A DNA stretch of 64,000 nucleotides, taken from Tyzzerella sp. (lineage in GTDB: Bacteria; Bacillota; Clostridia; Lachnospirales; Lachnospiraceae). The first letter of the stretch is position 1. Every line of letters begins with the position of its first letter. A program made the translations under genes and the position numbers. Below the pieces are notes generated by a model. That model was not told where the DNA came from. It worked only from the letters and a program-made list of their open reading frames with translations, and searched no databases. Of the stretch, positions 2,409 through 50,085 are shown one piece after another. Location of the stretch: positions 124,001-188,000 of the forward strand of contig JAFQDE010000004.1 in NCBI GenBank assembly GCA_017416155.1. The letters run 5' to 3'.

Positions 2409-2482
2409 ATAAAAATAAGTTGTAATTCCTCACGTACAATGCTATGATTAAAGGTAGTAATTTTACAAAAGCAGGTGCCCAG

Positions 2483-5400
2483 ATGAAGAACAAAATCAAG
2501 CAATTTTCGAAAGGTGATTTTCAAACAAAGCAGCCTGACGTACGCTTCTCTGAAACGCAACTATTTATAACTGTAGGTGAGGGTGAAGTGTACGAAGGGA
2601 GCTTTCTTATAGAGGCTGCAGAAGACGGAAATATCAGAGGTCTCGTATATCCGTCTTCTTTTCGTGTGCATTGCTTGGAGGAAGGCTTCGAAGGTAATCC
2701 AGTCAAGGTGAATTTCACCTATGACAGTACGGGACTTTTGCCAGGACATATCGAGCAGGGCAAATTTACTGTTGTGTGCAATGGAGGGGAATATGATATT
2801 GCTTTTACGGCAATTGTAGAAAAACCTTTTGTTGTGACACAATACGGAAAAGTGCAGTCTTTGGCAGATTTCAAGAAACTTGCTACGCAAGATTTTATGG
2901 AAGCACGGACATTGTTTCGTAGCAGACAATTTTATGAGATTTTAAAGTATGAGGACAAGCGTGCTCTGAATCTATATGACAATATGCGTAAATGGTCATT
3001 GGATGAGCAGGCATTGGAAGAGTTCCTTGTAGGTATCAAACTGAAGGAGAAGATTTTTCTTACACTTTCTGAGGAAAGCGTGAAACTTCAAGATGTCTTG
3101 GAAGAGCAGAAGTGTTGTATTACAATTAGTAAGAATACCTGGGGATTTGCACCGATTCGCATTGAGACAGTCGGTGGGTTTATAGATATTATACAGAAAG
3201 AGATTACAACAGAAGATTTTGTGGGAAGTCATTATCGGCTGGAATATCAGATTTGTTCAAAGAAGCTACATGCGGGTTATAACTTTGGTAGAATTTCTGT
3301 GTCTACACCTTATGAAACTATGAGTGTTGAAGTGACAGTACATCAAAGAGGTTCACGTGATGAAATGCGTGGAATGAAAGGCGTGGTTGCAGGTCGCGGA
3401 CTTAAGGAATACTTGGCGTTTATTTCAGGAAAGACCAGTGTTAGTCAGTGGGTAGAGCAGGCAGTTAAGCGAGTGGGCCAACTTCGTGAATTGGAACCGG
3501 ACAACGAATTGTATCCACTTCTTCAGGCACACATTTATTTACGAGGAAGAAGAGAAGAAGAGGCGAAGTGGATTTTGGAGAATGGTAATTATGACCGTTT
3601 TGTGATTGGAAGAAAAGCAGATGTTAAGGCCTATTACATGTTCCTTACAGCGCTTCTTAAGAATGAGACATTACATACCAATCGGGTTTTAGAGGAAATT
3701 AATCGTATCTATATGAAACATCCTTATACATGGCAGTTGCTTTGTATGATTATTAATCTAGATACGAAATATCGAGATTACACCGATAGGCTACGTGTAC
3801 TGGAACGTCAGTTTTTTAATGGAGCGAATCACATTCTGCTTTATGCAGAGGCTTATCTGTGTTTCCAAGAGCGGGTTGTATTACTTCGCAAACTAGAGTC
3901 TTTTGAAGTTCAAATATTAAATTTTGCAACGAAATACAAAGTAATTACAAGAGACTTAGCAATTCATATGGCCGATTTGGTGTGTAGACAGAAGAAATAC
4001 GATTCTAAACTTTTGCGCATTTTGCAACGTGCATATGACATATATGATGAGCCATTGATTCTAAAGGCGATTTGTACACAGTTGATTTTAGGAGATAAGA
4101 CGGGAAGTGCTTATTTTAAATGGTATGAGGCAGCTGTAAAACAGGAACTCCGTATTGCACAATTATATGAGTACTTTATGATGTCTGTGGACATACAAAG
4201 TATGAAAAATGCTTTTCCACAGATTGTTTATTTGTATTATTCGCATGGAATCAATTTGGACTATAGCAGAATTGCACTTTTATATGAAAATATTTTGACT
4301 TATGAGAGCGAGAACGGTGATATTTATAGACAGTACAAGGAGCAGATGCAAACATTTGCAAAAGAGCAACTGTTAAAACGCCGCATCAATGATTCTCTGC
4401 GTGTGATTTATAATCGTTTTCTTAATCCGAGTACATTGTCCTTAGATGAGGTAGATGCAGTTTATGATATTTATCATGCTTATCAAGTGACAACGAGTGC
4501 GAAAGGTATTAAGTATGTTCTTGTCATTGAAAAAGACGGAAGTGTGAGACAGCGTGTGCCATACAAAACAAAGCGTGGTGCCATGGTGTATCTGTATGAT
4601 AAGGATGCGAGAGTTGTATTTGAAGCAGATAATGGTCTTCATTATACAGATTCTATATCTTATGACGCAAGAAGAGTATTTCATGAACTGCGATTTGCAG
4701 ATGTGTGCAAAAATCGTAAAGTCCTTCAAACAGAGCAGGAAACAAAGGAACAGGAAATACTGCTTTCTTTTGATAATTTGAAGAAGTATGGGATGGAGTG
4801 TTTTGACAAGCAGGAGATTTTCCTTTTATGTACCAAGTGTATTCGTGAGCAGGAACAGGTAGAGGATGATTTTCTATTATATCTGACTTTTGAACTTCTG
4901 AAAGAAGGTCTGTATGATAAAGCAGTTTTGAATTATCTGGCACAATTCTACTGCGGAGCAACATGCGATATGAAATTTGTATGGCAGATGGCAAGAGAGT
5001 ATGGGGTGAATGCCAAAGCCATCGCTGAACGTATCATTACGCAGATGTTGTTTTCCGAGGTGATGTTTGGTGAGGAAGAAGTTTTCGAGGATTACTATAC
5101 GGGAAGACCATATTTTCGATTGAAACAGGCATATCTTGCTTATATATCGAGAATGTATGTTGTGAGAAATCGTTCTATATCCGAACGACTGATTCGTATT
5201 ATGATACAGGAATTTGCGCAGAAGGAATATTTGGCTGATATTTGTAAAGTGGCAATTTTAAAATATTATGTGGGTCGGGAGACAGAAACTGCAATTCAGT
5301 ATATGCTGAAGGAGTTTTTTCTCGAAATGTGCGAGAAGCATATGGTGTTTGCTTTTTATATGGAGTATCCGCAAGAGTGGCTCAGGGAAGTGCAATTGTA

Positions 5401-5773
5401 TGATAAAGTATTAGTAGAGTATCGAGGTGTGATAGACGGAAAGGTGAAAATCTATTATCGCATTCAGAGGGACGGCTTGGAGGTACATGATTATCATTCA
5501 GAAACGTTGCTGCCGATATATGACAATGTGTTTGTGAAGGAGTTCGTTCTTTACGGAGACGAAAGTTTAAAATATTATTTTGAAGAAATGAATCAGGACA
5601 AACAGTTGATAAGTGCTAAGGCTGTTTGCAACAAGACGGATATCGTGTATGAAGCCGGAAAGTTTGGAAGGTTGAATTTGATTTCCCGTCTGTCAAAAGA
5701 AAAGCAATATGAGGCTATGGTTTGCTGTAAGCAAGAGGAACAGATTGCAAAAGAATTGTTCCCGACATACTAA
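2483..5773 (+). CDS. DUF5717-family large cytoplasmic protein (beta-sandwich plus helical solenoid)
   Basis: 1096 residues from the ATG at 2483, preceded by a modest GCAGGTG site; an upstream in-frame ATG at 2444 has none. I recognise the family (DUF5717, which I know mainly from Lachnospiraceae); its function is not known to me. No signal peptide or membrane helix is visible, so it is probably cytoplasmic. The first 125 residues look like two beta-sandwich units (IRGLVYPSSFRVHC..., GEYDIAFTAIVEKPFVV), followed by helices and another beta-unit (about 215-285, ending MSVEVTVHQRG). Most of the rest is alpha-helical with TPR-like spacing (YPLLQAHIYLRGRREEEAKWIL), interrupted near 680-740 and near 980 by beta stretches (KYVLVIEKDGSVRQRV; KVKIYYRIQRDGLEV). 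Its stop is 24 bases before the DUF5716 gene, so the two are probably one operon. A scaffold role is plausible but is inference only. Confidence 0.85.
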   Translation: MKNKIKQFSKGDFQTKQPDVRFSETQLFITVGEGEVYEGSFLIEAAEDGNIRGLVYPSSFRVHCLEEGFEGNPVKVNFTYDSTGLLPGHIEQGKFTVVCNGGEYDIAFTAIVEKPFVVTQYGKVQSLADFKKLATQDFMEARTLFRSRQFYEILKYEDKRALNLYDNMRKWSLDEQALEEFLVGIKLKEKIFLTLSEESVKLQDVLEEQKCCITISKNTWGFAPIRIETVGGFIDIIQKEITTEDFVGSHYRLEYQICSKKLHAGYNFGRISVSTPYETMSVEVTVHQRGSRDEMRGMKGVVAGRGLKEYLAFISGKTSVSQWVEQAVKRVGQLRELEPDNELYPLLQAHIYLRGRREEEAKWILENGNYDRFVIGRKADVKAYYMFLTALLKNETLHTNRVLEEINRIYMKHPYTWQLLCMIINLDTKYRDYTDRLRVLERQFFNGANHILLYAEAYLCFQERVVLLRKLESFEVQILNFATKYKVITRDLAIHMADLVCRQKKYDSKLLRILQRAYDIYDEPLILKAICTQLILGDKTGSAYFKWYEAAVKQELRIAQLYEYFMMSVDIQSMKNAFPQIVYLYYSHGINLDYSRIALLYENILTYESENGDIYRQYKEQMQTFAKEQLLKRRINDSLRVIYNRFLNPSTLSLDEVDAVYDIYHAYQVTTSAKGIKYVLVIEKDGSVRQRVPYKTKRGAMVYLYDKDARVVFEADNGLHYTDSISYDARRVFHELRFADVCKNRKVLQTEQETKEQEILLSFDNLKKYGMECFDKQEIFLLCTKCIREQEQVEDDFLLYLTFELLKEGLYDKAVLNYLAQFYCGATCDMKFVWQMAREYGVNAKAIAERIITQMLFSEVMFGEEEVFEDYYTGRPYFRLKQAYLAYISRMYVVRNRSISERLIRIMIQEFAQKEYLADICKVAILKYYVGRETETAIQYMLKEFFLEMCEKHMVFAFYMEYPQEWLREVQLYDKVLVEYRGVIDGKVKIYYRIQRDGLEVHDYHSETLLPIYDNVFVKEFVLYGDESLKYYFEEMNQDKQLISAKAVCNKTDIVYEAGKFGRLNLISRLSKEKQYEAMVCCKQEEQIAKELFPTY

Positions 5774-5797
5774 AATACGCAAGGGAGGAAATGTGAC

Positions 5798-6964
5798 ATG
5801 TCAAAGAATATGATAGGAATTGACTTAAATGAAAGATATTGTCAGATAAGTTTTTACCATGAAGAACAGCAAGAGCCACAGACATTGGACAATGTCACAT
5901 ATCCGATTGCAGGCCTATATGAGAAAGCGATTGAACAAGCTGGCGGAGAAACAGTTAGAGCGTTGGCAGAACTTATTGAAAGGGCTTTGGCACGTTTTGA
6001 AACTATCGATGAATTGGTATTTACGGTTCCAAGACTGAATATTGATGTTGTCCGTATGCTCAAGGGAATTGGTCAGAGAGTAGGAGTAGATAAACGTCAT
6101 ATTTATGTACAGGATTACAAAGAGAGCTTTTGTAATTATATGTTATATCAGCCAAAAGAATTATGGCAGTATGAGGCGGCATTGTTCCACTGTGACCGAC
6201 ATGAAGTCAAAGCATATATGCTTCGCAAGATTCGTACAGGCTATGGAAAAGGTAGGGATTCTTTTATTACAGTTGACGAGGTTGCGAGTGCACAGATGGA
6301 AGAGTTGGCATCGGTGTATCCGGTACTCAATGTAGACAGGGCAAGAGATGCGGATGTGAGATTCAAACAGTTTGTACAGGGTGTTTTCGAAAAGAAATTA
6401 GTATCTTCAGTATTCTTGGTGGGAGAAGGTTTTGAGAACAACTGGTATCCGCAGTCGCTTCGTGTGATGTGTAATGGAAGAAGGGCATTTCTCGGCAACA
6501 ACCTTTATAGTAAGGGTGCATGTTATACTGCGTTCAAGCGAGCATACAATTATGAAGATGCATTAGTATATTTGGATGAAACTAAAATGCTTGACCAAAT
6601 TTGTCTAAAACTTCGTGTGCAGGGCGTGGATAAATGGTGCCCAATTGTGCCGTGGGGTAGCAGATGGTATGAAGCAGACACAAGTTTTGAATTGCTGTTA
6701 GAAAATACGGATGATATTGAGATTCATATTGAGTCTCTTGCCGGGGCAGAACTACAAGTGGAGCGGATATCATTAGAGGAGCTGCCAAAGCGCAATAACT
6801 ATACACTTAGATTACAGGTAAAAGTAATGATAATGGATGAAAAACATTGTCGCATCAGTGTGAAGGATGTGGGATTTGGAGAATTTTTCCCGGCTACTGA
6901 TTTTTACGTGGAAAAGGATATACATTTAGGAGGAAGCAATGAGCAGTTTAATTCTTTGTCATAA
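5798..6964 (+). CDS. DUF5716-family protein, resembles a degenerate Hsp70 (actin-fold ATPase)
   Basis: 388 residues; ATG at 5798 with GGGAGGA upstream. I place it in DUF5716, a family without known function. What can be seen: the N-terminus IGIDLNERYCQISFY matches the phosphate-1 loop pattern of Hsp70 ([14 protein letters not shown] in the DnaK of this window). Near residue 70, FTVPRLNIDVVRMLKGIG followed by VDKRHIYVQDYKESFCNYML parallels Dna[16 protein letters not shown] and [27 protein letters not shown] and GNNLYSKGACYTA parallel Dna[12 protein letters not shown] and [11 protein letters not shown]. The C-terminal part (CPIVPWGSRWYEADTSFEL, DDIEIHIES) looks like the Hsp70 substrate-domain beta sheet. 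The phosphate-2 loop (DLGGGTFD in DnaK) is replaced by HCDRHEVKAY, so ATP hydrolysis may be lost. The gene sits between DUF5717 and a helical-repeat gene, overlapping the latter by 26 bases. Confidence 0.8.
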   Translation: MSKNMIGIDLNERYCQISFYHEEQQEPQTLDNVTYPIAGLYEKAIEQAGGETVRALAELIERALARFETIDELVFTVPRLNIDVVRMLKGIGQRVGVDKRHIYVQDYKESFCNYMLYQPKELWQYEAALFHCDRHEVKAYMLRKIRTGYGKGRDSFITVDEVASAQMEELASVYPVLNVDRARDADVRFKQFVQGVFEKKLVSSVFLVGEGFENNWYPQSLRVMCNGRRAFLGNNLYSKGACYTAFKRAYNYEDALVYLDETKMLDQICLKLRVQGVDKWCPIVPWGSRWYEADTSFELLLENTDDIEIHIESLAGAELQVERISLEELPKRNNYTLRLQVKVMIMDEKHCRISVKDVGFGEFFPATDFYVEKDIHLGGSNEQFNSLS

Positions 6965-7715
6965 GAAGAAGGCAAGACATGCTTATGAAATTGCGCGTAT
7001 TCATCGCCGCATTTATACAATTGAAGAACTCTGCTATTATCTGTGTAATCACTTATATCTTGTGGATTACACGATTATGAATGAGAAACTGTGCGACTGG
7101 TTGGAAGAAGAATTGGAACTTCAGGAACTTTCCGCCAATCTCAGAGATATGTTGGTACAGAATGCATCTATGGAACAATTCATTGTAACTATATTGGCGC
7201 ATTCGGCCATTTATACAACATCAGAGATCAATCAGATACGGGATGTATTAGACAGGCTGAAAAATCAAAGGCCGATTGAAAAACAGAAATACAAAGCGGA
7301 TAACCTTCTGGAAAGTGGTTCTGTGAAGTCTGCCATTATGGCATATCAGGAGATTATTCATGGTGAGCGTGACGAGAGTATAGACGGCAGATTTTATGGG
7401 AAGGTGTATGCTTGTTTGGGAGCTGCATATGGGCGTCTTTTCTTATATGAAGAGGCGGCAAAAATGTATGAGGCTGCGTTTCAGATATGTGAAGAGCGTT
7501 CTATGTTAAAAGCTTATCTCTATGCTTGCCGTAAATATATGAGAAGCGAGGAATATATGGCACTTTTACAGAAAAGTCATGTATACCAAGCCGTTGATAA
7601 TGAACTTTCTGAGGCAATCACAATGATTGAAGGCCAAATCAAGGTACTTCAATATGAAGATACATTGGAAAACTGGAAAAACCAATATCGCAGAATTAGT
7701 ACGGGCGAAATGTAA
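6939..7715 (+). CDS. Helical-repeat (TPR-like) protein of unknown function
   Basis: 258 residues; ATG at 6939 with AGGAGG 5 bases upstream. It begins inside the DUF5716 gene, so translation is probably coupled. I do not recognise a named family. The sequence is almost fully alpha-helical: residues 1-110 are a compact helical domain (YTIEELCYYLCNHLYLVDYTIM), then about 120-205 read as TPR-like pairs (ADNLLESGSVKSAIMAYQEII; KVYACLGAAYGRLFLYEEAAKMYEAAF, quoted here as separate helices). There is no signal peptide, membrane segment or catalytic motif. As the third gene of the DUF5717/DUF5716 operon it is most likely a binding partner of those proteins; this rests on context alone. Confidence 0.7.
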   Translation: MSSLILCHKKKARHAYEIARIHRRIYTIEELCYYLCNHLYLVDYTIMNEKLCDWLEEELELQELSANLRDMLVQNASMEQFIVTILAHSAIYTTSEINQIRDVLDRLKNQRPIEKQKYKADNLLESGSVKSAIMAYQEIIHGERDESIDGRFYGKVYACLGAAYGRLFLYEEAAKMYEAAFQICEERSMLKAYLYACRKYMRSEEYMALLQKSHVYQAVDNELSEAITMIEGQIKVLQYEDTLENWKNQYRRISTGEM

Positions 7716-13910: not shown

Positions 13911-14849
13911 TTAATTTTTAGAAGCTTGTGCTTGGAATTCAGCAAGCTGTTTTCTTAATAAAGCATTTTCATCTTGCAGAGAAGAGATTTCTACTTGCTG
14001 AGAAGCTCTTTTATCTAGTAGGGAGGCTCTTTCGTTTAGTAGGGAAGCCCTTTCGTCTAGTAAGGAAGCTTTTTCATCTAGTGCTTGTTGGTATTTTTCT
14101 TGCAAAATTTTATTGTCCCTCTCCAAGGTCCGTTCCCTGCGAAGTGCATCTTCTCTTGCACGGCATTGTTCGCGGACGATTTCTTCTTCGTTGGCGATAC
14201 GTATTGAACTAGCGGCTTCTTGTAAATATTCATCATTTTGTGCTACCATTTGTAATTCCTCCCAAGTCTTGGCTTTAAAAAGACGAGCCCAGTAATCGAT
14301 TTTTGAGGATTTATCTTCCTCGGTTGCTTTGTCTATCTGAGTTAAGTCTACCACAGACAAGGTAAATTTGTCACTATAAACTTGGGCATGATTTTTAACA
14401 TTTATCATGCGATAGGTTGCATAAAATTCAGGTTCATCAGGAAACAGCGAGAAATCAGTAAATCCGATGTGAATAACAGGAAGTGTTTCTTCGTAGTCTT
14501 GACCGCTTTGCAGTTGATCAAAGGCGCGACAGAGATAAGTCAGAGACCGGTCAGCCCAATTGAATTCGTTTTTGACTTGCATTTCTAAATTTAGTAATTG
14601 GTTACTGTTTAGCAGGACTTTGATGTCCAGTACAAAATCTTTTCCGGTAATGTTTTTTGACAAATCAATGGGATTCCGAATTTCGACGGATACTATCTGA
14701 TTTGGTTTTAGATTGAGTAAGGCACAGATAAGTCCTTTTAATACTTTTTCGTTTTTCTGTAAGATGTAACGAAACATGTAATCATTGGTCATGTTATACT
14801 GAATGACCCCAGTATTGTCCGTATAAGACGGATGCTTAGTGTTTTGCAT
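13911..14849 (-). CDS. Rpn-family PD-(D/E)XK nuclease / putative transposase
   Basis: 312 residues on the minus strand; ATG at 14849 with AGGAGG 9 bases upstream (a TTG at 14855 is nearer to the site and less likely). The N-terminal half fits the PD-(D/E)XK nuclease family of Rpn proteins: MTNDYMFRYILQKNEKVLKGLI, GKDFVLDIKVLLN, LLNLEMQVKNEF with the Asp...(E/Q)xK active-site pattern, and AFDQLQSGQDYEETLPVIHI. Family knowledge: Rpn proteins are RecA-independent recombination-promoting nucleases or accessory defence factors, often found in many copies per genome. The C-terminal 90 residues form a charged coiled coil with heptad repeats encoded by tandem 21-bp units. It is the only + / - switch in the first 20 kb and has its own promoter and terminator, as expected of an inserted single gene. 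Confidence 0.82.
   Translation of the reverse strand: MQNTKHPSYTDNTGVIQYNMTNDYMFRYILQKNEKVLKGLICALLNLKPNQIVSVEIRNPIDLSKNITGKDFVLDIKVLLNSNQLLNLEMQVKNEFNWADRSLTYLCRAFDQLQSGQDYEETLPVIHIGFTDFSLFPDEPEFYATYRMINVKNHAQVYSDKFTLSVVDLTQIDKATEEDKSSKIDYWARLFKAKTWEELQMVAQNDEYLQEAASSIRIANEEEIVREQCRAREDALRRERTLERDNKILQEKYQQALDEKASLLDERASLLNERASLLDKRASQQVEISSLQDENALLRKQLAEFQAQASKN
14002..14085 (-). repeat. Four 21-bp tandem repeats encoding heptads
   Basis: Four adjacent 21-base units (14002-14022, 14023-14043, 14044-14064, 14065-14085) each encode a heptad of the type ASLLDER near the C-terminus of the Rpn protein. Units differ at a few positions each. Expansion or loss would keep the frame and change coiled-coil length by two turns per unit. 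Confidence 0.85.
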
Positions 14850-14893
14850 AGGCAAAATCCTCCTTTGTAAAAAATAATTAAATAATAAGTAAA

Positions 14894-15157: not shown

Positions 15158-15184
15158 TTAGCACTCAAAAGAAAAGAGTGCTAA
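15158..15184. promoter_or_regulatory. CIRCE operator (HrcA binding site)
   Basis: Perfect inverted repeat TTAGCACTC, 9-base spacer, GAGTGCTAA: the canonical CIRCE. It lies between the promoter and hrcA, so HrcA represses its own operon, and heat-induced loss of HrcA activity releases it. Confidence 0.97.
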
Positions 15185-15207
15185 TAAACAAAAAAGAGGA
15201 GGTATCT

Positions 15208-16248
15208 ATGGAACTGAATCACGAATTAGATGACCGTAAGCTTAAGATTTTACAAGCGGTTATCAAGAACTATTTAGAGACCGGCGAACCGGTTGGCTCC
15301 AGAACGATTTCTAAATACACAGATCTTAATTTGAGTTCTGCAACTATTCGTAATGAGATGGCGGATTTAGAGGATTTGGGTTACATCATACAGCCTCATA
15401 CATCAGCGGGACGTATTCCTTCGGATAAAGGATATCGCCTTTATGTAGATATGCTGATGGCAGAGAAGGAACAGGAAGTCATTGAGATGCGAGAGCAGAT
15501 GCTTGAGAAAGCTGATAAGATGGATAAGATTCTCAAGCAGGCAGCAAAAGTATTGGCAGTTAATACGAATTACGCAACGATGGTTTCTGCACCTAATATG
15601 AATCGAAACAAATTAAAATTCATTCAACTTTCACAGGTTGATGAACACCAGATTATCGCAGTGATTGTGATGGAAGGTAACATTATTAAGAATAAGATTG
15701 TCACAGTGGAAGAGACTCTTAATAATGAGATTATGTTAAAGCTGAATATGCTTCTTAATACAAGCCTTCCGGGCATGTCGATTGAAGAGATTAATCTCGG
15801 AATGATAGCAGCTCTCAAAGAGCAGGCAGGAGCGCAGGCAGAGATTATCGGAGATGTGCTCAATGCAATCGGAAGCACCATTCAGCCGGAAGATTTAGAG
15901 ATTTACACTAGCGGTGCAACAAATGTATTCAAATATCCGGAACTCAGCGACAATCACAGTGCACAGGAGATTATCAATGCATTTGAAGAAAAGCAGATGC
16001 TCCAGGAGATTGTGACACAGACACTTTCAAAAGACGATAATCATGGCATTCAGGTTTACATCGGTAATGAGACGCCGGTTCAATCGATGAAGGATTGTAG
16101 TGTAGTAACTGCAACTTATGAATTGGGTGAAGGAATGCAGGGAACGATAGGTATTATCGGACCGAAACGAATGGATTATGAACATGTAATGAAGACTCTG
16201 AAGACTCTGATGACAGAGCTTGATGAGATTTTCCATAAAGAAGAATAG
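15208..16248 (+). CDS. hrcA: Heat-inducible transcription repressor HrcA
   Basis: 346 residues from the ATG at 15208 (GAGGAGG upstream; a GTG at 15178 lies inside CIRCE and is not used). N-terminal winged helix (LKILQAVIKNYLETGEPVGSRTIS; LSSATIRNEMADLEDLGYI; PHTSAGRIPSDKGYR), then the GAF-like and dimerisation region. It binds CIRCE and needs GroEL for folding, so free chaperone levels set repression. It is the first gene of hrcA-grpE-dnaK-dnaJ, the standard Firmicutes order, with grpE starting 17 bases after its stop. Confidence 0.97.
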   Translation: MELNHELDDRKLKILQAVIKNYLETGEPVGSRTISKYTDLNLSSATIRNEMADLEDLGYIIQPHTSAGRIPSDKGYRLYVDMLMAEKEQEVIEMREQMLEKADKMDKILKQAAKVLAVNTNYATMVSAPNMNRNKLKFIQLSQVDEHQIIAVIVMEGNIIKNKIVTVEETLNNEIMLKLNMLLNTSLPGMSIEEINLGMIAALKEQAGAQAEIIGDVLNAIGSTIQPEDLEIYTSGATNVFKYPELSDNHSAQEIINAFEEKQMLQEIVTQTLSKDDNHGIQVYIGNETPVQSMKDCSVVTATYELGEGMQGTIGIIGPKRMDYEHVMKTLKTLMTELDEIFHKEE

Positions 16249-16265
16249 AAAGGTGGCAAGGTCCA

Positions 16266-16910
16266 TTGGAAGAAAACAAGAATCAAGAAGTGGTAGAGGA
16301 AACTGTGGAAGAGACCACTCAGGCAGAAGAAACTGTTGATGCAGAAAATGCTGATGCGGAAAACGTAGAAGCAGAGGCTGTAGAAACAGAAGCGGAGGCT
16401 GGAGACAAGGTCGAAGTAGAAGAAGCAGCAGAACCTACAAAAGAAAAATCAAAATTATTTAAGAAGAAGAAAGACCCAAAAGACGAAAAAATCGAAGAAC
16501 TCTCAGATAAACTGTTAAGACAGATGGCTGAGTTCGATAATTTCCGTAAACGTACAGAAAAAGAAAAATCAGCAATGTACGAAATCGGTGCAAAAGACAT
16601 CATAGAAAAGTTACTTCCGGTTGTGGATAACTTCGAAAGAGGATTTTCGACAGTAACAGAAGAGGATAAAGAAGATGCATTTGTAACTGGTATGGAGATG
16701 GTATACAAGCAATTGATGACGATGCTTGAGACGGTTGGCGTGAAACCAATCGAGGCAGTAGGACAGGAATTCAATCCGGACCTTCATAATGCGGTGATGC
16801 ATGTAGAAGATGAGACGGTTGGAGATAATATTATTGTAGAAGAATTTCAAAAAGGCTACACATACCGTGACTCCGTTGTGAGATACAGCATGGTGAAGGT
16901 GGCAAACTAA
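16266..16910 (+). CDS. grpE: GrpE nucleotide exchange factor
   Basis: 214 residues with a TTG start at 16266, preceded by AAAGGTGG; no ATG in frame lies near. The N-terminal 60 residues are very acidic and repetitive (EETVEETTQAEETVDAENAD) and low complexity, followed by the long GrpE coiled coil (DKLLRQMAEFDNFRKRTEKEK) and the beta-wing head (GVKPIEAVGQEFNPDLHNAVMHVED; VEEFQKGYTYRDSVVRYSMVKVAN). It releases ADP from DnaK. The weak TTG start may lower its output compared with dnaK. Confidence 0.97.
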   Translation: MEENKNQEVVEETVEETTQAEETVDAENADAENVEAEAVETEAEAGDKVEVEEAAEPTKEKSKLFKKKKDPKDEKIEELSDKLLRQMAEFDNFRKRTEKEKSAMYEIGAKDIIEKLLPVVDNFERGFSTVTEEDKEDAFVTGMEMVYKQLMTMLETVGVKPIEAVGQEFNPDLHNAVMHVEDETVGDNIIVEEFQKGYTYRDSVVRYSMVKVAN

Positions 16911-16931
16911 CAATCAAACATAAATATTTAG

Positions 16932-18812
<1,881 letters not shown>

Positions 18813-18814
18813 AT

Positions 18815-18951
18815 ACAGTTCAGCCATGTGAAAAATATCAGTATTGTATGCGTCATGCTTGCATGTTAGCAAACAATGCTGATATTTGGCGTATGGCGCT
18901 CTGCCTAAGCGAGAAGTAGCGTAGCGGATTCGAGCTTTATGGCTGAACTGT
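18815..18951. repeat. 137-bp element with 13-bp perfect inverted ends between dnaK and dnaJ
   Basis: The ends are ACAGTTCAGCCAT (18815) and ATGGCTGAACTGT (18939). Inside is a second stem of 15 pairs with one G:U (AAATATCAGTATTGT / ACAATGCTGATATTT), itself capped by ATGC...GCAT. The dnaK stop is at 18812 and dnaJ starts at 18986, so the element fills nearly the whole spacer. No T run follows, so it is not a plain terminator. It may be an mRNA-processing or stability element that sets the DnaK:DnaJ ratio, or a small non-autonomous mobile element. No open frame is present in it. Confidence 0.75.
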
Positions 18952-18985
18952 GATGGAATTATAGTAGATAGGAAGGCAGATAATA

Positions 18986-20164
18986 ATGGCTGAAACAAAA
19001 AGAGATTATTATGAGGTGCTTGGTGTAGACAAGAACGCCGACGCCGCAACAATCAAAAAAGCATACAGAGCCTTGGGAAAGAAATATCATCCGGACGCAA
19101 ATCCGGGAGATAAAGAAGCAGAAGCGAAGTTCAAAGAACTGTCAGAAGCTTATGCTGTACTTAGTGACCCGGAAAAGAAACAGAAATACGATCAATTTGG
19201 TCATGCGGCATTTGATGGTGGTGCAGGAGGAGGCTTCGGTGGCTTTGACTTCAGTGGCATGGATTTTACAGATATTTTTGGCGATATTTTCGGCGATATG
19301 TTTGGTGGCGGACGTCGTTCGAGACGTTCTTACAATGGACCGATGCAGGGGGCAAATGTTCGCAAGGGAATTCGCATTACATTTGAGGAAGCAATTTTCG
19401 GATGCGAGAAAGAATTGGATGTTGTCATCAAAGATCCATGTACAACCTGTGGTGGAAACGGTGCGAAACCGGGAACCTCACCGGAGACATGTCCAAAATG
19501 TAACGGACGTGGTCAGGTGGTATATACAACGCAGTCATTCTTTGGAACGATGCAGAACGTACAGACATGTCCGGAGTGTAATGGTTCCGGTAAAGTGATT
19601 CGTGAAAAGTGTTCAGACTGTGGAGGAACCGGTTATGTGGCATCTAAGAAGAAAATATCAGTTAGTATTCCTGCAGGTATCGACAATGGTCAAAGCATTC
19701 GCATCCGTGAAAAAGGTGAACCGGGCATCAACGGAGGTCCAAGAGGCGATTTGCTTGTCGAAGTAACTGTATCAAGACATCCAGTATTCGGACGTCAGGA
19801 TATGCATATTTTCTCTACGGCACCGATAAGTTTTGCGCAGGCAGCACTTGGTGGCGATGTTCGCATCAAGACTGTAGATGGCGATGTGTTATATACAATT
19901 GCACCGGGAACAAAGACAGATACCAAGGTGCGTCTTCGTGGCAAGGGTGTTCCATCTCTTCGCGACAAGAAGATTCGCGGCGACCACTATGTTACACTTG
20001 TGATTCAGACACCGGAGAAATTGAGCTCAGAAGCAAAAGAACTGCTTCGCAAGTTTGATGAAGTGACCGGTAATTCTTTGAAACAGGGCGAAGAGGCTGA
20101 GAAAGAAAAGAAGAATAAGAAAAAAGGCTTTATGGATAAGGTCAAAGAAGCATTTGAGGATTAA
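18986..20164 (+). CDS. dnaJ: Chaperone protein DnaJ (Hsp40)
   Basis: 392 residues. J domain with the HPD tripeptide ([15 protein letters not shown]), Gly/Phe-rich linker ([21 protein letters not shown]), four zinc-finger repeats CxxCxGxG ([32 protein letters not shown]), C-terminal substrate-binding domains and a Lys/Glu-rich tail ([13 protein letters not shown]). It delivers unfolded proteins to DnaK and stimulates its ATPase. It is separated from dnaK by a hairpin element of 137 bases and may therefore be made at a different level. Confidence 0.97.
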
Positions 20165-35126: not shown

Positions 35127-36836
35127 TTGAATAATGACAAAAAAATATTGTCACGATTACTTTTGACCATTGCATTTCTGTTGACGGTAAGCAATGCAAT
35201 TGGTGCTCAGGCATCCGCAGGAAGCGTAACCGGTTATCAGAAGATTACCTGGGGAATTAGTACCGGACGTTACTATGTCAATGGGATACATGCATTTTGT
35301 GCACAATACAATAAGTCTTGGCCAACTGTAGGGACAGCAGTAAATGAAATTGTCCCATGCACAAATGAGGTGCTTAGAAAAGCACTCTATTATGGTTACA
35401 ATGGACCAAAAAATACCCTTGGAACCGACGAGAAATCACATGTCTTAACCGCCATCGCGGTATCAGATGCAAATATTGGGGAACCAGAAACAGGAGCAAG
35501 CGCAAAATATGATGCGTTCTACTGGGAATTAGTGAACAACCCATCTAAATATCCTTCTCCGCCAAGTAATTTTAAAGCCTATCTGGCGATTACGGCCTCA
35601 GATGCAATGCAGAACCTTGCATTCTATGAGATGGAGAAAAACGGATATGTAACAGGAATCAAATATTCATCCAATCTACAATTACATAGCGGAAATTCCT
35701 GCTATTCTTTGGAAGGAGCAGAGTACGGAATCTATTCCAGTTCATCCTTAGATGAAAGTACGAGAGTAGGTGTTTTGGCAACAAATGCGAATGGAGAGAT
35801 GAACACATTGGAATTGGAAGCGGGTACATACTATGCGCGTGAAAATGTATCGCCGATGGGTTTTGCGAAAAGCAATGAAGTTACTCAGTTTACCATAACG
35901 GCAGAGAAGACAACGACACTCACATTTACAGATGACCCACAGACCAATCCAATAGATATTCTTGTGCGAAAGATAGATGCAGATACGAATCGAAACGAAC
36001 CACAAGGGAGTGCAAAACTGGATGGGGCACATTTTCGTGTTCAATACTATGCGGGAATTTGGCATAAGGATGAAGATCCGGCAAGTTTAGGACAGACGCC
36101 AACAAGAACCTGGGTGTTTCAAACTGATGAAAATGGTATTGTCAGATATCATAAAGCTTATCTGGTCACAGGGAGTGAATTGTATGAGTCAATGCCACTT
36201 GGAACATTAGTGATTCAAGAAATAAAAGCCTCAGAGGGATATTTACGAAATGATACCGTATATGTGAGACAGATTACATCAAGTGGAGAAGAAATGCATG
36301 TAGCAACCTATGAAGCACCGACTGTTGCACAAACATATATCAAATTGAATTTGGTAATCTCTAAAAGTGACAATTACGGACAAAAACTTAAAGGTGCAGA
36401 GTTTACACTTTATGAAGATGAAGAATGCCTGAGAGAAGTTAAAAGCGGCACCACAGACAAAAATGGTATTCTACAGTTCTCGGGTCTCGCACTCGAGAAG
36501 ATGTATTATTTAAAAGAAACAAAAGCCCCGGCAGGATACAAACTGAAAGTAAGAGAAGACGGTGATGCAGTTATATACAATATATTTACAACAAGTGCAC
36601 CGGAAAGCAACGAGTTTACATGTTATGTTAACGGAAATAAATATGAGAATATTTCCGGAACAGACGACAATCGGGAAGTGAATATCGACATTGTCAATGA
36701 TGTGGAGTTTGTCCTTCCGAAAACCGGCTCAAACACAACCATTCTTATGAGCATGGCAGGAATGGCATTGTGTGGAATGAGCCTGTACCTACATAAAAAA
36801 GAGAAAAAACAAGAAAAAGGAGAACATGTATTATGA
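35127..36836 (+). CDS. LPKTG-anchored surface adhesin with thioester-type and SpaA-like domains
   Basis: 569 residues; TTG start at 35127 spaced well from AGGAGGA. Signal peptide (about 1-30, ending GAQASA). Residues 40-175 fit the Cys-Gln thioester domain of Gram-positive adhesins: Cys58 in HAFCAQYN and Gln162 in SDAMQNLAFYEME are the candidate bond partners. Then three SpaA/Cna-B-type beta domains (GAEYGIYSSS...YYARENVSPMGF; GAHFRVQYYA...LVIQEIKASEGY; KGAEFTLYEDE...YYLKETKAPAGYKL), each with the Lys and Glu positions typical of internal isopeptide bonds. The C-terminus is a sorting signal: LPKTG (530-534), hydrophobic helix, HKKEKKQEK tail. Thioester domains attach covalently to host amines; the target here is unknown. 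It is first in an operon with a dedicated sortase. Confidence 0.85.
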   Translation: MNNDKKILSRLLLTIAFLLTVSNAIGAQASAGSVTGYQKITWGISTGRYYVNGIHAFCAQYNKSWPTVGTAVNEIVPCTNEVLRKALYYGYNGPKNTLGTDEKSHVLTAIAVSDANIGEPETGASAKYDAFYWELVNNPSKYPSPPSNFKAYLAITASDAMQNLAFYEMEKNGYVTGIKYSSNLQLHSGNSCYSLEGAEYGIYSSSSLDESTRVGVLATNANGEMNTLELEAGTYYARENVSPMGFAKSNEVTQFTITAEKTTTLTFTDDPQTNPIDILVRKIDADTNRNEPQGSAKLDGAHFRVQYYAGIWHKDEDPASLGQTPTRTWVFQTDENGIVRYHKAYLVTGSELYESMPLGTLVIQEIKASEGYLRNDTVYVRQITSSGEEMHVATYEAPTVAQTYIKLNLVISKSDNYGQKLKGAEFTLYEDEECLREVKSGTTDKNGILQFSGLALEKMYYLKETKAPAGYKLKVREDGDAVIYNIFTTSAPESNEFTCYVNGNKYENISGTDDNREVNIDIVNDVEFVLPKTGSNTTILMSMAGMALCGMSLYLHKKEKKQEKGEHVL

Positions 36837-37384
36837 AAAAAGTAAAAGTATTATTAGCAGTATTATTATCAATCACAGCAATTTTAGGGTCAGTAGCACC
36901 AGCCTATGCGGCGGAACCTGTTTCAGAGGTCAAAATAGAAATCGAGCCAACGGATATGAATGTTTCTGTTACCGTTCCATCAACATTGCCAATTATCTTT
37001 AATGCAGACGGAAGCAATACTATTCCAAGCAACTGGACAATTGAAAATATCAGTGCACTTGCAGGTATTCATGTAACAAATGTGCATTTGAATGCAAATG
37101 GAACAGGATGGAAATTAACGAATGAATCAGCAACTGTCAAGACACAGAATGTCAATGGAAAAACAGTGAAATTCTTTGCAGGTGTTCCGGGAATAATGAA
37201 ATTAGTAGAGGCAAAAAGTGGATCAACGAGTGAAACAGGAACAGCATCATTTGAGGCTAACGATATCCGTATTGCTTCTGGAGCGACTAAGACTCTTAAC
37301 TTTACGGTAGAAAGAGGTGCATTTACAGAGACAACCGCATCTGCAAAAGCATTTACCATGACAATTGATTTTGCATTTAACTAA
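36833..37384 (+). CDS. Small secreted beta-rich surface protein
   Basis: 183 residues, ATGA overlap with the adhesin. Signal peptide 1-26 (cleavage near AYA-AEP), then a compact beta-sandwich-like domain: VSVTVPSTLPIIFNADGSN, AGIHVTNVHLNANGTGW, TKTLNFTVERGAFTETTA, ending FTMTIDFAFN. There is no sorting signal or membrane anchor. I do not know a family name for certain. The same fold pattern (VSVTIPSSISVIFENTGEN) recurs in the 533-residue protein two genes downstream, so it is a recurring building block of this island, possibly a fibre or accessory subunit. Confidence 0.7.
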   Translation: MKKVKVLLAVLLSITAILGSVAPAYAAEPVSEVKIEIEPTDMNVSVTVPSTLPIIFNADGSNTIPSNWTIENISALAGIHVTNVHLNANGTGWKLTNESATVKTQNVNGKTVKFFAGVPGIMKLVEAKSGSTSETGTASFEANDIRIASGATKTLNFTVERGAFTETTASAKAFTMTIDFAFN

Positions 37385-37397
37385 GAGGTAACAAGAA

Positions 37398-37880
37398 ATG
37401 AATAGAGCGGAGAAGAAACATATTGTAGTTTATGTAGGAATCTGTATGTTCTTCCTGTTATTTATGGCTGTAGTGAGTCATTCATGTGGGCAGGAATTGG
37501 AGGTCTCGGAATATGAAGAGAATGTGAATCAGATAGAAGAGATTGATGCATCAGAAAGGCAGGCAGAACTCAATGCCATTGTAGAAAAAGGGAAAATGAA
37601 CGTGAATTATTCTGCAAAAGCAATTTTTGATGGAACTGTCAGTGAAAACTTTAATGTCAAAAACATCAAGAACAATCATTACCCAATTGTCTTTGAAATA
37701 TTTGATGAAACAGGAGATAGCGTCTATGTATCAAAAAAAATCGAACCGGGATATGAGATAAATCAAATCGAATTAGAAAAGAAACTGTCAAAAGGAACAC
37801 ATGAATGTAAAATAAAGGTGGGTTATGCGGAAGAAGGAAATGTATCTTCCGCATTTCCTCTTACAATTGAGGTGAGATGA
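37398..37880 (+). CDS. Membrane-anchored extracellular protein of unknown function
   Basis: 160 residues. One N-terminal membrane helix (IVVYVGICMFFLLFMAVV, about 9-26) with positively charged residues before it, so the rest faces outside. A short acidic linker with helical character (VSEYEENVNQIEEIDASERQ) leads to a beta-rich domain (NYSAKAIFDGTVSENFNVKN; YPIVFEIFDETGDSVYV) that ends at the last residue. No family recognised. The position between secreted and anchored surface proteins suggests an assembly or anchoring helper; that is inference from context. Confidence 0.65.
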   Translation: MNRAEKKHIVVYVGICMFFLLFMAVVSHSCGQELEVSEYEENVNQIEEIDASERQAELNAIVEKGKMNVNYSAKAIFDGTVSENFNVKNIKNNHYPIVFEIFDETGDSVYVSKKIEPGYEINQIELEKKLSKGTHECKIKVGYAEEGNVSSAFPLTIEVR

Positions 37881-39478
37881 TGAAAAGAATACTATTTTTG
37901 CTTATTGCATGTCTGTTCATCGGAACGACTGTGAATGCGAAAAATTCTATGTCGACAGAGGTTCAAATTGCAATTGAAGCATCAGAAATACAGGAGGAAA
38001 AAGCAAGCGGTGTTCAGACCGGAGATGATAAGCAGTCATGGGGATATGTGCTTGCAATCGGAGTCGCTGTTTTGGTAGGTGTATTTTCCTTGGCTCGCAA
38101 GAGAAGAAAGACATTTGTGGCTGTGTGGCTCTTGTTTCTATCTTTGTTTTTTGCGAGCAATTCTGCATGCGCGGCAGAAAGTACAGAAAATGTGAGTGTA
38201 ACGATTCCAAGTAGTATTTCTGTTATATTCGAAAACACAGGTGAAAACAGTATCAGTGATTTTTCGGTTCTTAATGAGTCAATGGTCCCGATTTCTATCA
38301 ATAAGATAAATGTGGCTGAGTGCAATGGGTGGCGCCTGTGTCGCAGTAAAGAATCTATACCGGTTGATACAAAACAGATGTCATTCATCTTTGATGGAAG
38401 ATGCTTGGAGGCAGGTGAAAATGCATTTGACAGGGTGATAAAAGAAGAAAGCAGTACAAGTTATAATATCAAAATTTACAGAGGAGCATGGACGACTTCT
38501 GCATCGTCAGAGGCTGCTATTCAGATGGAATTTGAATACAGCATTGGAAAAAAAGAGTTTCAATTAAATTTTGACGCGAATGGAGGCACACCGGTCGCTT
38601 CACAGATGATATGCAATGGAGATGAGATTACCTTGCCAAGTACAGAGCGAGAAGGATATGAACTTGCGGGCTGGGAAGATTCCGACGGAAAACTGTTTAC
38701 AGATAAATTTGTCATGCCAATAGGAGACATGACATTAACAGCAAGATGGAAGGAGAAAAAGCCATATGCCATTTATATTGAAGAAGATACTTCGCTGAGA
38801 TTTATTCAGTCCGCAGATGAGGTTGTTCCAGGAGGGAGTTACAAAGGAATGACAATTACAAACGTATTTACCGGATTTGATACGGAAAGGTATACCAGTG
38901 TAAAGCAGGTGCCATGGAATGACGGAAAAGGATATAATGTAAGGCATATCAACAAAGTGATTGTAGAAGATACGATTCAACCGGTCAGCATTGCCTATTG
39001 GTTCTATGAACTCCATGAGGTTGAGTACATTGATGTAAGCAAGTTGGATACCTCCAAAGTGAATGATATGTCCTATGCATTTTACATATTTGCCCGTAGT
39101 TCAACAAAAGTAACATTCATAGGACTGGACAAGTGGAACACATCGAATGTCACAAACATGAAGCGTATGTTTGGATATGCTGCCGTGAATGCATCAAGTG
39201 TTGTCCTTGATATCAGCGGATGGGATGTATCGAACGTGACAGATATGTACAGAATGTTTACTGAGTTTGGTTACAATGCTTCGACATTTGGTTTGGGAGA
39301 TTTGAGTAAATGGGATGTTTCCAACGTAACCGACATGTACGAAATGTTTATCAATGCCGGTTACAAAGCAGAGTGGTATATGGATCTTAGCGGATGGGAT
39401 GTATCAAAAGTAACGCGACATGACTATTTCGACAGTGGTATCGATAGGAAGATAGGAGATCCGCAGTGGGCACGTTAA
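37877..39478 (+). CDS. Chimeric surface protein: sorting-signal-like segment, second signal peptide, InlB and BspA/DUF285 repeats
   Basis: 533 residues, starting in an ATGA overlap. Signal peptide 1-21. Residues 46-78 (VQTGD, hydrophobic helix, RKRRK) look like a complete cell-wall sorting signal, although without the usual Pro. Directly after it residues 79-100 form a second signal-peptide-like segment ending SACAA. Then a beta domain like the small secreted protein upstream (VSVTIPSSISVIF), an InlB-type repeat (FDANGGTPVASQM...YELAGWEDSDG), and BspA/DUF285 units (WNTSNVTNMKRMF; WDVSNVTDMYRMF; WDVSNVTDMYEMF). There is no sorting signal at the true C-terminus. The best reading is an in-frame fusion of two genes. 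Either it is anchored by two membrane helices, or proteolysis separates the parts. Confidence 0.72.
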   Translation: MMKRILFLLIACLFIGTTVNAKNSMSTEVQIAIEASEIQEEKASGVQTGDDKQSWGYVLAIGVAVLVGVFSLARKRRKTFVAVWLLFLSLFFASNSACAAESTENVSVTIPSSISVIFENTGENSISDFSVLNESMVPISINKINVAECNGWRLCRSKESIPVDTKQMSFIFDGRCLEAGENAFDRVIKEESSTSYNIKIYRGAWTTSASSEAAIQMEFEYSIGKKEFQLNFDANGGTPVASQMICNGDEITLPSTEREGYELAGWEDSDGKLFTDKFVMPIGDMTLTARWKEKKPYAIYIEEDTSLRFIQSADEVVPGGSYKGMTITNVFTGFDTERYTSVKQVPWNDGKGYNVRHINKVIVEDTIQPVSIAYWFYELHEVEYIDVSKLDTSKVNDMSYAFYIFARSSTKVTFIGLDKWNTSNVTNMKRMFGYAAVNASSVVLDISGWDVSNVTDMYRMFTEFGYNASTFGLGDLSKWDVSNVTDMYEMFINAGYKAEWYMDLSGWDVSKVTRHDYFDSGIDRKIGDPQWAR

Positions 39479-39981
39479 AACGGATGCTTTTTGCACTTGG
39501 TCTATTACTCTGTATTTATCCCATTGTTGGGCAACACATAAATAAAGTTCAACAGGAGAGCATAGATTCTGAAGGGGTAATTGGACTAATCAGGATTCCT
39601 AAAGTGGATGTTCTGCTTCCTGTTTATGAAGGAACATCAGAAGCAGTTCTCCAAAAAGGAATCGGTCATCTGGAGGCGAGCAGTGCACCCTCGGGAGGAA
39701 TCGGCACACACTGTCTATTGGCAGGACATCGAGGGCTTCCGAATGCAGAACTCTTTAGAAGACTGGGAGAACTGAAGAAAGGTGATTTGTTTTCTATAGA
39801 AGACAAGAGTAATACATACACATACCAAGTATGTAACATTCGGGTGGTGAGACCGGAAGAGACAGAGGGACTGGGGATTTGCAAAGACAGAGACCTAGTC
39901 TCTTTGATTACTTGCACACCGTATGGCATCAATACACACAGATTAATTGTAACAGGAGAAAGAATGGAGGCGAGAAGATGA
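39466..39981 (+). CDS. Sortase, class C-like but short
   Basis: 171 residues with a GTG start at 39466 inside the end of the preceding gene. One N-terminal membrane helix (MLFALGLLLCIYPIVG), then the sortase barrel with His88 (LAGHRGLP), Cys150 (SLITCTPYGINTHR) and Arg159, the full catalytic set. The TCTPYG-NTHR signature is that of pilus-type class C enzymes, yet the protein lacks both the N-terminal lid (DPW-type) and the C-terminal membrane helix and is about 100 residues shorter than they are. It presumably processes the LPKTG adhesin of the same operon. Confidence 0.88.
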   Translation: MGTLKRMLFALGLLLCIYPIVGQHINKVQQESIDSEGVIGLIRIPKVDVLLPVYEGTSEAVLQKGIGHLEASSAPSGGIGTHCLLAGHRGLPNAELFRRLGELKKGDLFSIEDKSNTYTYQVCNIRVVRPEETEGLGICKDRDLVSLITCTPYGINTHRLIVTGERMEARR

Positions 39982-40553
39982 TACAAAAATGTTTACCTGT
40001 TCTAGTTGGCTTCATCATATGTATGTGGCCATTCCCTGCATCTGCAGGGGAAACAGGTAGTATAGAAATGATGCTACCAAAAGAAATGGCGGGGAGGGAA
40101 ATCATATATCAAAGAGATGGAGATGAGCTAAAAGAGATTGCAGTAGATGATGAGGGAATTGCCAAGATAGAAGAATTGCAGGAGGGCAATTATGAAATCA
40201 AAATTTCTGAAACAGAGGATTACAACTTCATGCCGATAAGTGTACATATTCCTTGCTGGAGCGAAGAGGAGGAGCAGATGCTTTATGATATTACAATCAT
40301 TCCTAAATATTCTGTGAAGGAACAGCAGCCCCCTCAGACTTTTGACAGTCATCAAGTCATGAATTATATCTACATCGGTATAATTTCATTGATAATCCTA
40401 GTGATAATGTCTTGTCATAACCGTTTTAATTGTGATACAATGACAGGTAAGTATTCAAAAAACGGAGGACAAAACGATGGGAATGACAATGACACAGAAA
40501 ATCCTTGCAGCTCACGCAGGACTGGACTCAGTAGTCCCGGGTCAGTTGATTGA
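39978..40553 (+). CDS. Secreted single-span membrane protein with a Cna-B-like domain; 3' end runs into leuC
   Basis: 191 residues; ATGA overlap with the sortase gene. Signal peptide 1-23 (ending ASAG), a short beta domain ([40 protein letters not shown]), a Pro/Gln stretch (KEQQPPQ) and a membrane helix ([17 protein letters not shown]). After the helix comes a tail of about 45 residues, whose last 25 codons overlap leuC in another frame (77 bases). The tail ([20 protein letters not shown]) has no recognisable content, so the original stop was probably lost when the island was joined to leuC. Confidence 0.7.
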
Positions 40554-50072: not shown

Positions 50073-50085
50073 GAGAGATATGACG

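Follow-up and report, generated by a model that had tools for sequence, protein, structure and literature searches.

A degenerate Hsp70-like protein of Lachnospiraceae and its apparent origin in an order-specific chaperone gene cluster

Three tightly packed or overlapping open reading frames (ORFs) on the plus strand (2444/2483-5773, 5798-6964 and 6939-7715) of a 64,000-nt stretch of Tyzzerella sp. DNA, hereafter the window, raise the question of what the middle protein is, and what it may do together with its two neighbours. By Pfam, the first two genes are clear members of families DUF5717_N/DUF5717 (PF18984/PF18983; 689.9 and 274.8 bits) and DUF5716_C (PF18980; 338.9 bits), whose descriptions read "unknown function" and hold no link to Hsp70; NCBIfam gives no match above cut-off for any of the three proteins. 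An earlier note, made from the sequence, had placed three closely spaced same-strand ORFs here, as we also find, and had taken the middle one for a degenerate Hsp70. Profile comparisons indicate that it is one by descent, and it appears to come from a new chaperone gene cluster specific to the order Lachnospirales. The three genes are:

2483..5773, plus strand: DUF5717 protein (PF18984 and PF18983), 1096 amino acids (aa), putative partner or scaffold (Pfam, locus comparison)
5798..6964, plus strand: DUF5716 protein, 388 aa, degenerate Hsp70 with its ATPase motifs gone and subdomain IIB mostly deleted (Pfam, profiles, alignment)
6939..7715, plus strand: tetratricopeptide repeat (TPR)-like protein T, 258 aa, its N-terminal domain matching no Pfam model (Pfam, orthologue comparison)

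Hsp70 ancestry and loss of the nucleotide site

Standard annotation misses the kinship, since the Pfam HSP70 model matches none of 19 diverse DUF5716 proteins of the window's family, Lachnospiraceae, at E <= 1. A profile of 19 Lachnospiraceae DUF5716 proteins, searched against all PDB sequences, gave eight matches, all of them DnaK (best E 8.8e-5), which cover the N-lobe and, weakly, the last strands of the substrate domain. With the window protein alone as query against the PDB no Hsp70 match was found, and the apocytochrome f matches obtained from that single protein (E 0.24-0.39) were judged to be chance. When 32 distinct Lachnospiraceae proteins were compared by hhalign with 40 intact Hsp70s, namely the window's DnaK and 39 proteins of types A, C and D from gene clusters of other families described below, the two sets aligned over 408 columns at 99.65% (E 4.6e-25), with C as the strongest group (E 7.8e-27), followed by A (8.9e-9) and D (5.8e-8). 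Six controls (four reversed profiles, DUF5717 and T) reached at most 0.9%, and the likeness to Hsp70 thus exceeds chance in both the profile search and the hhalign comparison. A bridge is provided by the B protein of one such cluster (locus L072), which at 523 aa matches both DUF5716_C (2.2e-33) and HSP70 (1.8e-14). Together with the tree discussed below, the PDB and hhalign matches uphold the proposed ancestry.

The Hsp70 motif order that had been read next to the window's DnaK is likewise recovered on alignment, with G6 and D8, TVP at P143, LVGEGF opposite LLVGGST, and the substrate-domain tail all in register. Residue names follow E. coli DnaK numbering, and columns were placed by motif in the window's DnaK. 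The corresponding segments of the DUF5716 gene are:

5813..5857, plus strand: phosphate-1 equivalent IGIDLNERYCQISFY, with G6 and D8 kept and TTN lost (alignment)
6020..6061, plus strand: connect-segment equivalent FTVPRLNIDVVRML (alignment)
6176..6211, plus strand: phosphate-2 equivalent AALFHCDRHEVK, with DLGGGTFD lost (alignment)
6404..6526, plus strand: adenosine-motif equivalent SSVFLVGEGF...GNNLYSKGACY, where conservation within the family is highest (alignment, conservation)
6599..6928, plus strand, bounds approximate: equivalent of the beta part of the substrate-binding domain (SBD-beta), ending ..VKDVGFGEFFP.. (profile, alignment)

DUF5716 resembles the canonical bacterial Hsp70s DnaK and HscC in a profile match over its length, in motif order and in a putative SBD-beta tail, the last placed both by profile and by alignment. 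Unlike them, it is without the ATPase motifs and most of IIB, and little follows its putative beta domain. Compared with 18 diverse proteins of its family, that of the window shows no more than 23-31% identity to 16.

The extent of the loss is evident from residue counts. All 39 A, C and D proteins keep G6, D8, G10, T11, T12, N13, K70, P143, E171, D194, G196, G197, G198, T199, D201, G341 and G342. B proteins from outside the family (n = 16) have G6, D8 and G341 in 16, G10 and D194 in 15, G342 and G196 in 13, T11 and E171 in two, and T12, N13, K70, G198, T199 and D201 in none. Among the 32 distinct Lachnospiraceae rows (a 39-row set minus seven duplicates), G6, G341, G373 and A374 are present throughout, D8 in 27 and G10 in ten; T11, T12, N13, K70, E171, G198 and G342 are found in none. 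Lachnospiraceae DUF5716 thus retains neither the phosphate-1 motif GIDLGTTN of a functional Hsp70 nor the catalytic residues K70 and E171 (0/32 each, as against 39/39 in A, C and D). The phosphate-2 loop, which the earlier note had called destroyed, is indeed so: from DLGGGTFD, D194 survives in 18 of the 32 proteins, G196 in two, G197 in four, G198 in none, and T199 and D201 in one each.

The stretch that would hold IIB is shortened as well. Between the phosphate-2 and adenosine motifs the median is 71 residues in Lachnospiraceae, compared with 144 in B, 146 in C, 153 in D and 180 in A, and between the GGDD and FDEL motifs (IIB) ten columns are filled, compared with 75 in B and 72 in C. The adenine-contact columns E267, K270 and S274 are gaps in 32/32 rows. 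The window protein and its relatives L100 and L101 have also lost 39 alignment columns from the N-terminal part; a third relative, L102, keeps 10 of these. With K70, E171, both phosphate-1 threonines, the second glycine of the adenosine motif and roughly half of the IIB stretch lost, nucleotide binding by DUF5716 is unlikely; the proposal that it may bind ATP and not hydrolyse it is therefore unsupported, the damage reaching well past the phosphate-2 loop. Since B already lacks the ATPase motifs and has a full IIB, the motifs would have been lost first and IIB later. Loss of motifs proceeds from B through Lachnospiraceae to the window's clade, and the related clusters give a series of intact, ATPase-defective and trimmed Hsp70s.

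An eight-gene cluster in other families of the order

In other families of Lachnospirales, relatives of all three genes lie in a larger cluster with the order N-M-A-G-B-C-D-T, made up of a split DUF5717, Hsp70s, a GrpE-ended protein and a TPR protein. Twenty outgroup loci from 18 genomes were read. Ten have this order or all of it but N (L060, L063, L065, L067, L069-L073 and L079), with extra small ORFs in L069 and L079, a short G in L060, and L073 beginning inside M at a contig end. Four more show the same order and are cut by contig ends (L064, L066, L068 and L077). Elsewhere the genes are dispersed (genomes G203 and G238), of the Lachnospiraceae type (G359) or reduced (G215). In L072, N and M are two parts of DUF5717, which occupies two genes in most of the larger clusters. 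The same locus encodes intact Hsp70s A (559 aa, HSP70 6.2e-78), C (546 aa, 1.6e-63) and D (691 aa, 8.1e-92), the last also bearing a vWA domain (VWA_4, 1.4e-10), a G protein of 630 aa with a terminal GrpE domain (7.1e-11), and a T with TPR repeats (2.7e-20); no J domain was detected among the ten L072 proteins scanned.

Some further features of these clusters may be recorded. At L072 (4377-19501) and across L060-L079, one cluster unites four Hsp70-like genes, the vWA-bearing one among them, with the GrpE-ended protein. A common acidic peptide resembling TELSVDELY, a possible TPR-binding tail, is found at the end of most A proteins, and most D proteins carry DTTGSMD, which resembles a metal ion-dependent adhesion site (MIDAS).

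Within the order sample, DUF5716_C occurs in 89/196 genomes (82 above cut-off, including 22 rows of the window's family). Outside the family the model often matches two longer frames per genome, and some positives there arise only through the C paralogue. A profile of the N-terminal region of T finds one copy in each of 88/196 order genomes, 87 of which are also DUF5716_C-positive (Fisher p 2e-52); DUF5716_C stands without T in G331 and G382, and T without DUF5716_C in G334. D is present in 69/196 order genomes, and the same query found it in 0/200 genomes of the family sample, 0/196 of the class sample and 0/199 of the phylum sample, three samples that contain no internal positive for it. DUF5716_C occurs in 6/196 class-sample genomes, all six of them from the window's family. 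As far as these samples go, the distribution of D and DUF5716_C is such that the eight-gene system appears restricted to the order.

Among the 88 proteins placed in a tree, A, C, D and DnaK separate from B and the Lachnospiraceae proteins with a support of 100, and the 32 Lachnospiraceae proteins form one branch adjoined by the B protein of L060 (SH-aLRT 98). For this tree the search was kept short and only the first 500 residues of D were used; branches are long in B and in part of the Lachnospiraceae rows, and the B protein of L070 falls on the Lachnospiraceae side (support 92), so that we make no use of the finer branching. L060 looks intermediate: the cluster is kept, and its B has an IIB stretch of full length (139 residues) but already bears the family signature around the adenosine site. 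In this locus (G202:C25, about 36865-39000) D and T are in broken frames, which may be early decay or an assembly error.

A similar reduction seems to have taken place a second time. In G215, N, M and B lie on one contig and T on another, and a genome-wide search of it finds as Hsp70s only B and a DnaK-like protein, with no A, C or D. Other members of its family have D (G243, G253, G264 and G273, of which one has the full cluster, L067), and yet another, G231, has no match to DUF5716, D or T. The Hsp70 search of the window's own genome (84% complete) finds a single DnaK, besides a 354-aa frame that matches weakly and is MreB-like by eye. Based on these patterns, the catalytic partners would have been lost both in Lachnospiraceae and, independently, in G215, with the eight-gene type as the presumed ancestral state, and the survival of the same parts in both reductions suggests that they form a functional core.

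The three-gene unit in Lachnospiraceae and its surroundings

DUF5716_C is found in 195/200 family genomes, with two matches in two genomes and one in the rest, and DUF5717 in 195/200 of the same sample. Both genes are present in 194 and neither in four (G029, G091, G098 and G128; Fisher p = 3.8e-7), whereas G020 has DUF5716 only and G146 DUF5717 only (67% and 68% complete). A second Hsp70 match, with 37% identity to C, was found in G091. Neither model matches any of 14 control genomes. We read 100 in-family loci (80 + 20), in 98 of which a DUF5716 ORF was picked; DUF5717 lies directly upstream in 96 of the 98 and T directly downstream in 91, so that the three genes do co-occur across the family, a point that the earlier note had proposed to check. 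By BLAST, the gene order is complete in 72/78 loci of the first set, the other six being one at a contig edge and five where an antisense ORF was picked instead, and in 20/20 of the second. The name Lachnospiraceae for the family rests on the named relatives, of which the nearest are three Tyzzerella sp. metagenome-assembled genomes and two uncultured Clostridia/Clostridiales (66-78% identity), followed, among the best 80 of 389, by Dorea, Claveliimonas, Mediterraneibacter and others. All three genes are under strong purifying selection, with proportions of synonymous differences (pS) of 0.72-0.81 compared with nonsynonymous ones (pN) of 0.14-0.21 between the window and L100-L103, where the synonymous rate dS is mostly beyond correction.

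The following signals accompany the operon:

2420..2448, plus strand: promoter-like site TTGTAA, 17 nt, TATGAT, with extended TG (consensus scan, sequence; weak)
5783..5789, plus strand: Shine-Dalgarno-like GGGAGGA ahead of the DUF5716 gene (sequence)
6928..6933, plus strand: Shine-Dalgarno-like AGGAGG of the T gene, inside the DUF5716 reading frame (sequence)

Such promoter-like matches are frequent in the region (33, compared with 18.0 +/- 4.9 in shuffles), which makes this one weak evidence. It overlaps the upstream ATG at 2444, and the DUF5717 ORFs of L100 and L101 are 1096 aa long; for the latter reason, and weakly for the former, the gene most likely starts at 2483 rather than 2444. The start of the T gene also lies inside the last codons of the DUF5716 gene, the two sharing 6939-6964, which bears out the 26-base overlap reported earlier. 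Of 72 loci with all three genes picked, 44 share 26 nt in this way and 25 share 29 nt; in the other three the overlap is longer and varies with the start codon taken by the ORF caller. The ribosome-binding site and start of T within the DUF5716 gene, and the recurrence of the overlap, suggest coupled translation.

The flanking proteins are less readily placed. DUF5717_N and DUF5717 were found in 43/43 members, with otherwise weak, scattered Pfam matches (one TPR at E 0.28). Against the PDB a DUF5717 profile gave nothing significant: the BepA TPR stretch appeared at E 0.066, and immunoglobulin light chains at E 0.12 with the N-terminal part as query. At best these matches hint at a helical repeat and a beta sandwich. 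Of the 1096-residue beta/alpha-solenoid protein proposed earlier, the length stands, and the solenoid gains no support from the Pfam and PDB searches. The window's T has weak TPR matches only, below the Pfam cut-off (best E 0.0042), and its profile reaches a designed TPR protein in the PDB at E 0.53; a match to DUF5718 (E 0.015) was non-collinear and was rejected. T is orthologous to the TPR protein of about 380-440 aa that closes the larger clusters, with which it has the N-terminal region in common.

Genes further downstream change place between loci and are not counted with the unit. One 477-aa gene cluster lies downstream in 74/98 loci; L085 has there the solute-binding protein, permease and ATPase of an ATP-binding cassette (ABC) transporter, as well as a SAICAR synthetase, a glutamine amidotransferase/phosphoribosyltransferase and an adenylosuccinate-lyase-like protein. 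Upstream, the gene at 1047-2408, with a peptidoglycan-binding domain, a weak SpoIID match and an asparagine-rich N-terminus, is placed outside the operon because it is on the opposite strand in L100. An operon of hrcA-grpE-dnaK-dnaJ type (by eye) lies about 7.5 kb downstream at 15178-20164; hrcA, grpE and dnaK are close in L101 too and not in most other loci inspected, and this proximity is therefore probably local.

Elsewhere in the window, a 314-aa PD-(D/E)XK nuclease-family protein (PDDEXK_2) with short C-terminal ERASLLD-like repeats is encoded on the minus strand at 13911-14855. A surface-protein cluster at 35127-40553 comprises a SpaA-type protein with a thioester domain and an LPXTG anchor, a DUF285 repeat protein and a sortase. 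At 48291-51819, two adjoining adenine-deaminase-like genes overlap by 17 bases and both contain Amidohydro_1 and Adenine_deam_C; by eye the first copy is without residues that seem catalytic in the second, and the two are perhaps an active/inactive pair.

Possible function and its alternatives

We lean, if only slightly, towards reading the DUF5716 unit as a nucleotide-independent, Hsp70-derived scaffold or holdase complex that stems from the eight-gene machine. DUF5716 would derive from subunit B, already ATPase-defective, of an order-specific assembly of eight proteins, in which B, itself non-catalytic, probably served to position clients or the catalytic Hsp70s, in analogy to Ssz1, with scaffolding by DUF5717 and T. 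The Lachnospiraceae would then have lost the catalytic Hsp70s of the cluster, and the nucleotide-binding half of B would have been trimmed; the substrate-domain region and the adenosine-site sheet would be retained, held between DUF5717 and T with the ATP drive gone. With no nucleotide cycle, the retained substrate region could bind clients only at fixed affinity, and DUF5717 and T would set the place and partners of that binding. The three-protein unit would then most likely act by binding proteins constitutively, as a scaffold or holdase, and possibly pass clients on to the housekeeping DnaK. For the wider proposition, that an order-wide multi-Hsp70 machine was reduced in Lachnospiraceae to a passive, nucleotide-free scaffold or holdase core, with at least one parallel elsewhere, we regard the chances as even.

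Several observations weigh against this reading. In Lachnospiraceae the mean majority frequency is 0.43 in the substrate domain and 0.41 in lobe I, as against 0.64 in the adenosine region; substrate-domain columns are thus no better conserved than lobe I, and peptide binding is not specifically supported. DUF5717 is without a known domain detectable by Pfam or PDB profile searches. Two of the four genomes that lack both DUF genes are 98-99% complete, so that the unit is dispensable there. Finally, the loss of partners in the family and in G215 is read from D in all 200 family genomes, from A and C genome-wide in the window's own genome, six other family genomes (four of them without both DUF genes, one without DUF5716) and G215, and from G by neighbourhood only.

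The same facts can be read otherwise. That the chaperone-like role is gone, and the Hsp70 fold serves as structural material for an unrelated assembly, such as one around DUF5717, is a possibility that we consider doubtful but worth keeping in view: it would agree with the absence of D from all 200 family genomes, of any cluster Hsp70 seen in the window's genome, and with the low identity of the window protein to most family members, but the orthologues of DUF5717 and T share their cluster in other families with a GrpE-ended protein and catalytic Hsp70s, which indicates a chaperone origin. Less probable still is a DUF5716 that binds nucleotide and does not hydrolyse it, as an ATP-dependent switch or an exchange factor for DnaK. 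The universal G6 and single adenosine glycine, the frequent D8 (27/32), and the atypical Hsp70s that work alongside canonical ones in yeast (PMC8476630) would fit such a protein; the seven residues found in 0/32 rows, the gaps at E267, K270 and S274, the halved IIB stretch (ten columns filled, compared with 75 in B) and the 39 further columns missing in the window, L100 and L101 speak against it.

A decaying remnant on its way out could account for the stepwise loss of motifs from B to the window's clade and for the four genomes that lack both DUF genes, but is highly improbable given the strong conservation of the pair in 194/200 genomes and amino-acid change that stays low where synonymous change is near-saturated. 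A defence or mobile-element function has the least to recommend it: large proteins of obscure function are generally common in defence systems, but PADLOC has no match for DUF5717 or DUF5716 and a single non-significant one for T (E 0.05), and the genes are near-universal in the family, mostly single-copy and fixed in order.

Under the scaffold or holdase reading, the closest comparison is with yeast Ssz1, described in PMC8476630 as an atypical Hsp70 paired with a canonical one in the ribosome-associated complex, and with Sse; B beside A, C and D would be a comparable arrangement of a non-canonical Hsp70 with canonical ones. The likeness is one of description and gene neighbourhood only. DUF5716 groups with bacterial B, and no cluster D is left in the 200 genomes of Lachnospiraceae. 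Cluster A (551-571 aa) and C (539-585 aa) proteins are near HscC (550-580 aa) in size, and in size only, going by a review (PMC8215388) that names DnaK, HscA and HscC as prokaryotic Hsp70 types. The main text of a survey of DnaK paralogues (PMC11019930) contains, by term search, no word starting with Lachno or Clostridi. In the literature searched, which covers few subscription journals, there was no mention of DUF5717, no description of DUF5716 (its sole mention being unrelated, judging by the title), and no account of an Hsp70 and GrpE cluster or of a vWA-bearing Hsp70 in Lachnospirales or Lachnospiraceae, which agrees with the earlier view of the complex as undescribed. Specialised bacterial Hsp70 paralogues also include SglK and StkA of Myxococcus xanthus, likened here by description only; SglK associates with a GrpE-like protein.

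DUF5716 is a further Hsp70 lineage that has lost its ATPase motifs and is yet present in 195/200 genomes of a major family of gut bacteria, mostly in single copy. The series from intact to ATPase-defective to trimmed proteins, with two separate losses of partners, makes it testable in bacteria what becomes of a substrate domain without its motor, and offers a concrete hypothesis for three Pfam models without assigned function and for the unnamed N-terminal domain of T.

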